Positions 9,883 to 44,270 of a stretch of 48,383 bases of DNA are shown here, one piece after another. Source of the stretch: a virus; IMG/VR virus record IMGVR_UViG_3300050821_008244, positions 1-48,383 of that record; one strand, 5' to 3'. Under the pieces are notes generated by a model. That model worked only from the letters and a program-made list of their open reading frames with translations. It was not told where the DNA came from and made no database searches. Numbering within the stretch: the stretch's first letter is position 1; each line of letters starts with the position of its first letter. The position numbers and the translations under genes were made by a program.

Positions 9883-10332
9883 TTAGAAGCTGTATCCCGG
9901 TCCGCCATCTTTTGCACGCCAAGTGATCGCATTCCAACCGGCCTTGACGTAGTGAGAAACGTTGTCACTGTCGATGAGACGATGACTGTCGCCCTCAGGC
10001 TTCCTCTTGATATTCAGTTTGACAGGGAAAGTGATTGAGTAGGTCGATCCATCCGGGAAGTGGTACGTCCTGAATTCTTCATTGCTGATGTCGGTGAATG
10101 TCGGCACGTTCTCACTGACCTGCTTCGTGACGTCGCCAACCTGTTCCTTCTGACCTGCTTTTTTGGCCTCTTCGATGAGAACATCGAGTGCGGCTTTGGA
10201 CATTTGAACTGACGGCACGCCGTCTATCTCACAAAAAAATACATCAAGTAGGAACGGAGTTACACTGCCCTCAGGTACGAGAGGTGCTACTTCATGCGAT
10301 GGAACTTTGTCGCCAATCTGATCTGTTGCCAT
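9883..10332 (-). CDS. Hypothetical protein downstream of the tmRNA
   Basis: 149 residues with AGGAGG at ideal spacing before ATG 10332. The N-terminal part is acidic, the middle is helical (AALDVLIEEAKKAGQKEQVGD), and the C-terminal part is beta-like with a YHFPDGSTYSITFPVKLNI segment and a final WRAKDGGPGYSF. It lies directly after the tmRNA terminator, so it is either served by read-through or by a promoter I cannot see. No family recognised. Confidence 0.65.
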   Translation of the reverse strand: MATDQIGDKVPSHEVAPLVPEGSVTPFLLDVFFCEIDGVPSVQMSKAALDVLIEEAKKAGQKEQVGDVTKQVSENVPTFTDISNEEFRTYHFPDGSTYSITFPVKLNIKRKPEGDSHRLIDSDNVSHYVKAGWNAITWRAKDGGPGYSF

Positions 10333-10342
10333 GTTTCCTCCT

Positions 10343-10382
10343 AAAAATTAGGGGGCCGTTCTGTTGCTAGGTCGGCCCCTAA
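10343..10382 (-). terminator. Rho-independent terminator after the tmRNA
   Basis: On the minus strand TTAGGGGCCG (10382-10373) pairs with CGGCCCCCTAA (10358-10348) across a 14-base loop and is followed by five T. It closes the tmRNA transcript before the gene that starts at 10332. The stem may also belong to the 3' end of the tmRNA coding piece. Confidence 0.75.
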
Positions 10383-10400
10383 CCCCGCTACAGTAGGCCG

Positions 10401-10451
10401 TTAGGCCGCTGCAGCAAATGCCTTCGCTTTTGGCGTTGCATTTGTGTTTCC
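10401..10451 (-). other. tmRNA tag-peptide reading frame
   Basis: Within the coding piece an open frame ends with TAA at 10403-10401 and reads GNTNATPKAKAFAAAA before the stop. The resume codon is not certain: GGA at 10451 would give all 16 residues, AAC 15, and GCA at 10439 would give ATPKAKAFAAAA. The terminal Ala-Ala is the part known to be needed for recognition by ClpXP-type proteases. The usual LAA or VAA end is replaced by a run of four Ala, and the tag contains two Lys. Confidence 0.75.
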
Positions 10452-10529
10452 GTGTCCCGTCTCGGTGGGCCACAGCATTCCGGCATGTCCAACGTGCTCT
10501 CACATCCCCATCGAAACCATGACGCCCCC

Positions 10530-10622
10530 ATCAAAGCAGCACTTGCACAAATCTCCCATGGCATAGGTGCAATCTATCCACAGTTAGTTCCCGACAAGGG
10601 CGGGGTTTGATACGTGCTGCTT
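10530..10622 (-). other. Intervening segment of the permuted tmRNA precursor
   Basis: Between the CCA end of the acceptor piece and the GGGGGCG start of the coding piece lie 93 bases. Their ends are complementary over 10 bp: AAAGCAGCAC at 10623-10614 and GTGCTGCTTT at 10542-10533 on the minus strand. This helix extends the acceptor stem in the precursor, as is known for permuted tmRNA genes, and would be removed by host end-processing enzymes (RNase P at the 5' end of the coding piece and a 3' nuclease at CCA). Confidence 0.8.
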
Positions 10623-10856
10623 TGGTGGAGGCGGGCGGAATCGAACCGCCGTCTGGCAATGGATCACACGCCTTCATACATGCTTAATTTGATCGGGGCG
10701 TCTATTCCAGAGGTGACCTTCAGGCTCTAACGCCTGCGTCCGCCCCCAGCGACTTCCCCCGAACTTGGTCGATAAATGGTCCGTGTGTTATCTCCTCTTC
10801 AACACGGTAGACGAGCTTGGCCCTCGAGTGACATGGAGACTCGCTGTACAACCGGT

Positions 10857-12133: not shown

Positions 12134-12578
12134 CGATGCCTCCTGTCAGCTGTTTGACTTCCCTACGTTCGAAAAAAAGAATTGGATTCGCTTCTTGTCT
12201 CACGAGGCTGACCATGTGCAGTGCCTCTCGGACAGGATCAGAACCCAGAGCCGCCTGCCATGCCACACGAGCCTCAGCGTTCAGATTGATAGGGAGGGTT
12301 ATCTGGACGTGAACATTGCCGCCCTTCGAAATCGTCGACTTGTAGGGCGTGACGACACGATGTCCGATTTCCTCAGACAGCATCTCGTCGAGGATGTTCT
12401 TCACACGATGGAAATCTGCCCAGTCCGGTACCGGAGTATCGAGATCGACCTGTAGAGTTCGGTTGTCTGCTATGACGACTTCCCATTCCTTGTCGAGACC
12501 GGCGTCGACCAGAATTTGCTGAGCATAGAGTGCGTGGTCCTTCTTAGGACCGCTGACACCTGAGACATCACTAGCCAT
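12117..12578 (-). CDS. Hypothetical protein
   Basis: 153 residues from ATG 12578, which follows GGAGG; an in-frame upstream start at 12632 lies inside the ligase gene and is unlikely. The protein has an alternating beta-alpha pattern (EWEVVIADNRTLQVDLDT, then HVQITLPINLNAEARVAWQ). The stretch DWADFHRVKNILDEML recalls short ferredoxin-like or Rossmann-type domains, but I do not recognise it. It overlaps the RNA ligase gene by 8 bases. Confidence 0.6.
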   Translation of the reverse strand: MASDVSGVSGPKKDHALYAQQILVDAGLDKEWEVVIADNRTLQVDLDTPVPDWADFHRVKNILDEMLSEEIGHRVVTPYKSTISKGGNVHVQITLPINLNAEARVAWQAALGSDPVREALHMVSLVRQEANPILFFERREVKQLTGGIDEVIV

Positions 12579-13674
12579 TGTCGGCCTCCAGAAATCGATT
12601 CGAAACAACCTTGAGCTTGATGTCATCTGCACTCGTCTTCCCTATACGTCGGATGACACAGCCTTCTCGCATATGTTTTGCCCCGGGGACTTTGCTTTCG
12701 CCGTCAGCTAGTTTGAGCATGCTCTGAGCGAACAGTCCCACATCTAGAACCGGAACGGTAGGAGCAAAACCTTCAGTGCCAGGCCATCTCCAGCTGCCGT
12801 TTTTCCAGACGTCGAATGCAAAGAACTGAACGTCCTCTTTGCTGTCGGAGCCGTAATTGAACCCTTTCTGGGTCGGCACGACTTCACCATAGAGAACCAC
12901 GCCAGGATTCTGCGTGCAAAATTCCTCGATTTCGGGTTGGTTTTTAACAGCCTGCCACCACACATTGTCGCCTTTCTGTTTCCACTGCTGGCGACTACCG
13001 GCGTAGAACACTCCGTCAACAAAGACGTAGCGAGCGTTGGACCCGTGAATCTTTTCGGTGACGTGTACGAGGTCGCCCTCTTTGATGAGACGCTTGTTGT
13101 TCTTCAATGCATCGACATCGTAGACGGGATAGTTGAACGCCACTTCGAGAGCAAGCGAACGGCCCGCACCCTTGATCCCCAGCTTAAAGAGAAAGAAAAA
13201 GAACCAACCCTTGAGAGTCTTAGGGTAACGACGATGCGGACGGTTCTTTAACGACACCTGATCGCTGGCCGTGCTCGCACGATCGAATTCTGGAACATAG
13301 TGTGTCACGCCGATCAATTCTGAAACATCTGTGCCCTCGGCGAACAGAATCTGATCATGAGGGACCACTTCATCGTAGGGCATCAGGAGGCCTTCACTGT
13401 ATTCCTTGCGAAGACGCTTCACGGTAATACGGCGACGTTTTTCTGGCACGGTGCCATCGATGCCGACGTGATCATTCCAGATGAAACGGAATGGCTCGGT
13501 CTGAGGGACCACGGAATCGGGCTGGATATACACAGCGATATCCCCGGTGTTGAAGTTGCCCTTACCGGTGACGCATTGGTAGCCGCCGACAAACGTTATT
13601 TCCAGCTTGTCGGCATTGGGGTGCGGCAAGACCTCGCCGATCCTGACCACGAGAGCTTTGTGAGTATCAGACAT
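12571..13674 (-). CDS. ATP-dependent RNA ligase (DRB0094/Rnl5-like)
   Basis: 367 residues. RNA ligases seal 3'-OH/5'-phosphate RNA breaks through an enzyme-AMP intermediate. The nucleotidyltransferase motifs are visible: motif I EKIHGSNAR with the adenylated Lys208, motif III in FFAFDVW, motif IV EGCVIR, and motif V KLKVVS near the C-terminus. The N-terminal about 130 residues (HPNADKLEITFVGGY) form the OB-like domain seen ahead of the ligase domain in the Deinococcus DRB0094 group. Start ATG 13674 follows GGAGGA. Likely roles are repair of RNAs cut by host defence nucleases. The nearby two-piece tmRNA is a tempting but unproven substrate. Confidence 0.85.
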   Translation of the reverse strand: MSDTHKALVVRIGEVLPHPNADKLEITFVGGYQCVTGKGNFNTGDIAVYIQPDSVVPQTEPFRFIWNDHVGIDGTVPEKRRRITVKRLRKEYSEGLLMPYDEVVPHDQILFAEGTDVSELIGVTHYVPEFDRASTASDQVSLKNRPHRRYPKTLKGWFFFFLFKLGIKGAGRSLALEVAFNYPVYDVDALKNNKRLIKEGDLVHVTEKIHGSNARYVFVDGVFYAGSRQQWKQKGDNVWWQAVKNQPEIEEFCTQNPGVVLYGEVVPTQKGFNYGSDSKEDVQFFAFDVWKNGSWRWPGTEGFAPTVPVLDVGLFAQSMLKLADGESKVPGAKHMREGCVIRRIGKTSADDIKLKVVSNRFLEADNG

Positions 13675-43384: not shown

Positions 43385-43866
43385 TGAGCATCAATCTAAA
43401 TAACACCACGCCAGCGGCTCCGTCGAGTACTGTCAATGTCTCTTGGCAAAAAGACAGCAGTGGAAACGTCAGTGCAAACGTTCCGCTAGGGACATCACTG
43501 ATTGATCCGATCGACGTCACCGGACAGACTGCGAACATCTCTTCAACGAATATCGTAGCTACTCCAGTCAACGGAGCGATTTATAGAATTTCAGTCTACG
43601 AAATTGTCACGACGTCAGCGGTATCGTCCTCGACTCTCCCGTCAGTTGTCATTGGATGGACAGATGCGGACAACGCCACGCCGCAGACGGCGACTCTGAC
43701 TCCTGCGTCGCCAACCGGAAACAGCTTGACCACTTACGTCGAAGGTGACGTGGTTATACATGCCAGTTCGGCAGCACCGATTACCTATTCCACAACTGGC
43801 TATGCTTCCAATCCGTCTACGACAATGCAGTACGCTCTGCATATAAGAACAGAGTTGACCACCTAG
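43384..43866 (+). CDS. Beta-sandwich tail protein
   Basis: 160 residues. GQTANISSTNIVATPVNGAIY, then YEIVTTSAVSSSTLPSVVIG and GWTDADNATPQTATL is a recurrent beta domain of phage tail accessory proteins in many short-tailed phages. Function not established; it probably forms trimers or rings on the tail. Confidence 0.65.
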   Translation: MSINLNNTTPAAPSSTVNVSWQKDSSGNVSANVPLGTSLIDPIDVTGQTANISSTNIVATPVNGAIYRISVYEIVTTSAVSSSTLPSVVIGWTDADNATPQTATLTPASPTGNSLTTYVEGDVVIHASSAAPITYSTTGYASNPSTTMQYALHIRTELTT

Positions 43867-43874
43867 GAGGGGAC

Positions 43875-44270
43875 GTGATTGACATCAAGCCGATCGAAGA
43901 AAAAGATGCCGACGATCTGATACAGGCAATCAACCAGGACACGTTTCATCCCGGCGAATGGAAAGTCACGGACTTCTATGACGGTACCGGGTTTTGTGAA
44001 ACAGTCAGAGATGAGAACGGCCCGATCGTCTTTGTAAAGTTCACCAAGAGTTTGCGAATTTCAGTCGTGTGGGCCGACAGCGAAAACCATCACCGCAACG
44101 CCCAGGCCATTGTACTGGGTATAAAAGACGCAGTTGAAAAAGCCCGTGGCCAAGGTTACACGGAAATCATCATCCAGACCAATGTACCAAAATTGGCAAA
44201 TTTCCTCACAAGGGTGATAGGCATGAGGAAGAGTGGGGACGAGTTTCTTCTCCCCTTAGGAAATCAATAA
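43875..44270 (+). CDS. GNAT-like protein in the virion block
   Basis: 131 residues from GTG 43875 (AGGAGG upstream). Strand-helix order and NAQAIVLGIKDAVEKARGQGYTEI followed by NVPKLANFLTRVIGMRKSG match the last half of GNAT acetyltransferases. The acetyl-CoA loop (usually R/Q-x-x-G-x-G/A) is not clear, so it may not bind acetyl-CoA. Small GNAT-like genes are common between tail and internal-protein genes of podoviruses. Confidence 0.6.
   Translation: MIDIKPIEEKDADDLIQAINQDTFHPGEWKVTDFYDGTGFCETVRDENGPIVFVKFTKSLRISVVWADSENHHRNAQAIVLGIKDAVEKARGQGYTEIIIQTNVPKLANFLTRVIGMRKSGDEFLLPLGNQ

Follow-up and report, generated by a model that had tools for sequence, protein, structure and literature searches.

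The window analysed here, a 48,383-nucleotide stretch of viral DNA, is a metagenomic fragment of a tailed soil phage. It encodes a terminase, a portal protein, a major head (capsid) protein, a DNA polymerase, an RNA ligase and a B12-type ribonucleotide reductase, in keeping with the first-pass annotation of this DNA, which had described the gene reported below as phage-borne.

The window contains a complete circularly permuted (two-piece) tmRNA gene, located on the minus strand at about 10690-10350 (Table 1). ARAGORN calls a single gene in the whole 48.4-kb window, a permuted tmRNA with the tag ATPKAKAFAAAA. The Rfam model RF04321 (tmRNA_permuted) aligns end to end at 10683-10401 minus with 93.5 bits (cut-off 47, E=6.4e-17), and RF01849 (alpha_tmRNA) aligns end to end at 10733-10350 minus with 51.7 bits (cut-off 50). 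The first-pass annotation had proposed a permuted tmRNA gene at this locus; with the permuted model and ARAGORN both positive on the minus strand, a further match to RF01849 and covariation among relatives, its coordinates and anatomy hold.

Table 1. Parts of the permuted tmRNA gene in the window, and the gene that follows it
Feature	Position	Strand	Basis
Permuted tmRNA precursor, ends approximate	10351..10690	-	RF04321, RF01849, ARAGORN permuted tmRNA call, fold z -2.85
Helix 2 (long-range), 5' strands GCATGTATGAAGGCGTGTGATCCATTGCC	10651..10683	-	Partner is 10510-10485; native versus swapped pairing over relatives
T arm GGCGG TTCGATT CCGCC, 5-bp stem, TTCGATT loop	10634..10650	-	Covariance model alignment, sequence
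Acceptor 3' strand CGCCTCC with U70 (10633-10627), A73 (10626), encoded CCA (10625-10623)	10623..10633	-	7/7 pairs with GGGGGCG
Intervening segment, 93 nt, presumably removed	10530..10622	-	Pairing of the ends over relatives
Acceptor 5' strand GGGGGCG; RNase P is expected to generate the coding piece's 5' end here	10523..10529	-	Acceptor pairing over relatives
D-loop region TGGTTTCGAT and helix 2 3' strands (10510-10485)	10485..10522	-	Covariance model alignment, native versus swapped pairing
Tag reading frame: resume codon GCA, ATPKAKAFAAAA, stop TAA	10401..10439	-	ARAGORN, Rfam, codon-position differences
3' pseudoknot element GGGGTTAGGGGCCGACCTAGCAACAGAACGGCCCC	10351..10386	-	Closes the RF01849 alignment; stem changes compensated in relatives
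Next gene, 149 aa, phrog_27874 in C-terminal half	9883..10332	-	ATG at 10332; Shine-Dalgarno AGGAGG at 10342-10337, directly 3' of the tmRNA

The acceptor part lies upstream of the coding part, with A73 and CCA present. The acceptor strands had been expected to pair over 7 bp; all seven pairs are found, one of them a G-U at position 3-70 (the alanine identity pair G3-U70). Helix 2 is likewise rebuilt from long-range strands as proposed, and the predicted tag frame is present. The D-loop reads TTTCGAT. The ends of the intervening segment, AAGCAGCAC and GTGCTGCTT, pair as a 9-bp helix that brings together both processing sites. The fold of 10690-10486 has an energy of -79.7 kcal/mol, and 0/200 shuffles were as stable.

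One part of the earlier description fails: what had been read as a terminator after the tag is the conserved 3' pseudoknot, and a scan of the minus strand detected no intrinsic terminator at the tmRNA 3' end. No sigma-70-like promoter was found upstream of the tmRNA, a result of little weight for the probable, acidobacterial host group. The 149-aa gene is probably co-transcribed with the tmRNA; its homologues occur in Tunturi_3, a phage discussed below, and in alphaproteobacterial phages. The RNA ligase (PF09414 with a PHA02142 OB fold; 12571-13674 minus) lies about 2 kb upstream of the tmRNA and has a possible function in RNA repair. In some relatives (L122, L125, L130-L133, L140), clusters of tRNA genes (for Ala, Gln, Thr and Trp, among others) lie immediately upstream of the ribonucleotide reductase.

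Helices and tags across relatives

All 18 correctly parsed sequences (the window and 17 relatives) have 7/7 acceptor pairs and G3-U70, with several different helix sequences; a further locus, L313, was misparsed by the script, read by hand and kept outside this count. The 3' end of the acceptor piece is alike in relatives, with compensating changes. For helix 2, the native strands have a mean pairing energy of -19.0 kcal/mol versus -14.1 kcal/mol when strands are swapped between phages, and 0/5000 permutations reached the native value. For the ends of the intervening segment the means are -12.0 native versus -4.8 kcal/mol swapped, again with 0/5000 permutations. Both swap tests include the misparsed L313, which makes them slightly weaker. 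The swapped control is conservative because some sequences are related and near relatives pair even after swapping. As judged from these sequence comparisons, the helices co-vary among relatives.

Three clade members (L250, L252 and L257) encode no CCA after A73 (CTCCACTG) and would therefore need CCA addition; the window encodes CCA. In G001 (L147) the intervening segment of the tmRNA is just 11 nt long, and the tag, of 35 residues, ends in VNVS.

Hand reading of the locus sequences gave the tags, which were then checked against the loci (the stop in G051 is TAA). Over the relatives, tag differences at codon positions 1/2/3 number 203/110/478. Third positions vary most, which marks the tag as coding-type sequence. 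The terminase tree has two groups. One contains Tunturi_3, G001 and G019, whose tags are long (26 to 35 residues). The second (clade B) contains the window and 12 others, with tags of 12 to 15 residues around AxTEKPxA[FM]AAAA; in 6/13 members GR closes the tag after the motif. The window's own tag fits the motif more loosely, ends in AAA and has no AND start. The clade tag motif and the unusual tag ends are new here. The same motif also occurs in a permuted tmRNA on a 47.9-kb contig outside the terminase set (L313:1460-1725, tag ATTEKPMSMAAAA).

Phage group, host and known tmRNAs

Over 91% of its length, the window's terminase has 48% identity to the terminase of Tunturi_3, a podovirus isolated on the acidobacterium Tunturiibacter (PMC11924767), and its head protein has 81% identity to the Tunturi_3 counterpart over the whole length. 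These resemblances make an acidobacterial host likely for the window.

We scanned ribonucleotide-reductase relatives and terminase relatives whole with RF04321. Matches above the cut-off occur in 14/46 terminase relatives of at least 10 kb and in 4/24 ribonucleotide-reductase relatives. Absence from shorter contigs means little, since these are fragments. Among distinct terminase-clade phages of at least 47 kb, 15/16 carry a permuted tmRNA, window included, with the near-copies G001/G002 and the pair G027/G029 counted once each (the G029 tmRNA has the same score and model alignment as that of G027). The carriers of at least 47 kb are G001, G002, G019, G027, G029, G033, G038, G042, G044, G045, G047, G053, G061, G067, a 59.9-kb phage contig in G069, Tunturi_3 and the window; G052 is the sole terminase-clade record of this size in which the RF04321 scan found no permuted tmRNA. 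The permuted tmRNA is a core gene of the window's phage group, which is new here.

ARAGORN called a permuted tmRNA in 37/120 IMG/VR stretches that had been preselected by a T-arm pattern match. A DNA-polymerase query found no relatives, a plasmid search found nothing, and when the window tmRNA was compared with phage DNA for distant similarity, the sole result was a short match to the T arm in phages of Caulobacter. Extra contigs retrieved via AAAAGR codons were chance matches, except for already known members. A host search via genome contigs yielded a single contig of phage origin, which belongs to a MAG bearing the label Bacteroidetes. Among 99 genomes of that MAG's phylum, this phage contig alone has a permuted tmRNA above the cut-off, so the MAG lineage does not explain the gene. 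The authors of the Tunturi study likewise discarded a host prediction based on a viral contig in a MAG (PMC11924767).

Permuted tmRNAs are also present, and new here, in three isolated phages of Tunturiibacter: Tunturi_3 (PP885686) at 88396-88172 minus (L154:32172-32396, RF04321 63.3 bits), Tunturi_4 (PP885687) at 43532-43941 minus (L325, 79.2 bits) and Tunturi_5 (PP885688) at 157899-158195 minus (L324, 86.4 bits). All three are unannotated in their records, and tmRNA goes unmentioned in the paper describing the isolates (PMC11924767), which shows how easily such genes are missed. No permuted tmRNA was found in Tunturi_1. The three carriers, a podovirus, a siphovirus and a jumbo myovirus, respectively, are mutually unrelated. 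Tunturi_4 and Tunturi_5 have 7/7 acceptor pairs and hand-read tags of 33 and 34 residues with tandem stops (ANTVTSTIRNVASVRTGFFRSAEPITNRYAVAA and AKNSPVVRGTAKVLSFARKFVPAVSSTRAFAMAA). The Tunturi_3 tmRNA belongs to the same phage group as the window and is likewise RF04321-positive, but differs in its 29-residue tag VNKIDRSVVAVVPASRKVRVAQFATMLAA, ending LAA by hand reading, and its 25-nt intervening segment.

GGQ-bearing RF-1-domain (ArfB-like) proteins are encoded in Tunturi_4 (L330:1947-2294 minus) and Tunturi_3 (L154:26469-26807 minus), the two sharing 74% identity, and an RF-1-domain match lies at G019:C1:8534-8710 minus. In Tunturi_4 the tmRNA model match begins a few bases past the RF-1-domain gene; this position directly upstream of the tmRNA suggests a ribosome-rescue module.

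Permuted tmRNA in phages is a known kind and has been published (PMC9004378). The first-pass annotation called it uncommon, which is only partly right: tmRNA occurs in about 2% of phage genomes, and two-piece forms make up 53/133 unique phage tmRNAs by ARAGORN (PMC9004378). Methylophage Melnitz and the pelagimyophages also carry a complete permuted tmRNA, and equal roles have been proposed: for Melnitz, upkeep of the hijacked translation machinery and tagging of host proteins (PMC9004378). Those are marine SAR11/OM43 phages with an alpha-like ssrA, whereas the window belongs to a soil clade tied to Acidobacteriota with other tags. We count the window gene as a new form of permuted tmRNA because of its phage group and tags.

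Compared with RF04321, the window gene shares the order of parts, tRNA-like domain, CCA, G3-U70, resume-codon context, tag and intervening segment; its tag is divergent, and lineage-specific models score near or below their cut-offs. RF01849 matches end to end and has a 3' ACCU-x-GCAACAGAA element in common with the window RNA, but the score is barely above its cut-off. In a model scan of 19 loci, beta_tmRNA was best on the window RNA at 63.4 bits, below its cut-off of 84, and most relatives passed neither the alpha_tmRNA nor the beta_tmRNA cut-off. No lineage-specific Rfam model appears to fit the window's phage group clearly, which is new here.

Function and competing readings

We consider it very probable (about 0.85) that the window gene is a working phage-encoded permuted tmRNA, producing a processed two-piece RNA that acts with host SmpB and alanyl-tRNA synthetase. 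From its anatomy and conservation we infer a trans-translation function, with expression, cleavage, charging, tagging and a benefit to the phage. In the folded transcript the two acceptor strands would be linked by the intervening segment, which host RNase P and a 3'-end nuclease would excise. The product would be a tmRNA in two pieces, one an acceptor piece with CCA at its end, the other a coding piece that begins with GGGGGCG; the acceptor helix and helix 2 would keep them together. Host alanyl-tRNA synthetase would charge it via G3-U70, and host SmpB would load it onto stalled ribosomes. There ATPKAKAFAAAA would be added, and the ribosome released for reuse in infection. SmpB is absent from 16/16 phage records by a search that finds it in 10 control genomes; smpB is present in 45/46 Acidobacteriota genomes (PMC11633108).

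The tag ends raise a different emphasis, to which we give limited credence: the tmRNA may serve mainly in ribosome rescue, its tag rewritten so that tagged proteins evade the host's normal ssrA degradation or go elsewhere. The canonical ssrA ending is a C-terminal hydrophobic residue followed by Ala-Ala. An [LMIVY]AA end occurs in 0/13 clade-B tags versus 35/37 other phage permuted tags called by ARAGORN, a Fisher comparison that is only indicative since the two sets are not independent samples. The GR ends are encoded by varied codons (GGTCGG, GGAAGG, GGGCGC), so GR appears to be kept as protein. In E. coli, ClpX recognizes the alpha-carboxylate together with the two final alanines, and the preceding leucine modestly (PMC7652416); GR ends would be expected to be poor degradation signals for an E. 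coli-like ClpX. By the same rule the window's tag, which still ends in two alanines, may yet be a degradation signal, though degradation of a protein tagged by it could be weaker than usual given AAA instead of LAA. Against the evasion of ssrA degradation, the hosts' own tags might share these ends, and Acidobacteriota ClpX may differ in specificity from the E. coli enzyme. A possible fuller account, to which we give similarly limited credence, is that an acidobacterial phage clade kept its own two-piece tmRNA and rewrote the tag to the clade-specific AxTEKPxA[FM]AAAA (often with GR), so that ribosomes would be freed without the usual ssrA proteolysis or the product redirected; on this account, permuted tmRNAs with tags of 29 to 34 residues would have been retained in unrelated acidobacterial phages as well.

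Alternatively, the gene could have been copied recently from a permuted tmRNA of the host itself, to be carried as a passenger or as a back-up with no special role. Permuted tmRNAs in three unrelated Tunturiibacter phages are what would be expected if hosts supply them. However, the tag type tracks the phage terminase tree and nearly every long relative retains the gene, which suggests inheritance and selection in the phages. The main permuted tmRNA lineages described in the tmRNA database paper are Alpha- and Betaproteobacteria and Cyanobacteria (PMC11915505). We regard a host copy as unlikely.

Far less probable is a tmRNA that has decayed or acts as a decoy, doing no more than titrating SmpB or alanyl-tRNA synthetase; such a role has been proposed for the CDS-less tmRNA of phage DS6A, and a TLD-only tmRNA of the DS6A kind does inhibit tmRNA (PMC4131195, PMC11915505). 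But the window gene and its relatives retain, with coding-type variation, the tag frame with its resume-codon context and stop, as well as the 3' pseudoknot, and we reject this reading. Chance resemblance or an assembly artefact, for which we found no point in favour, is refuted by the recurrence of the permuted order, with covariation, in more than 15 independent contigs and three complete isolate genomes.

Permuted tmRNA has so far come mainly from three bacterial lineages and mostly marine phages; here it is conserved in soil phages tied to Acidobacteriota. With Tunturi_3, Tunturi_4 and Tunturi_5 in culture on Tunturiibacter, there is a tractable system for studying the benefit that a phage draws from a tmRNA of its own and for finding out whether phages alter the degradation tag.
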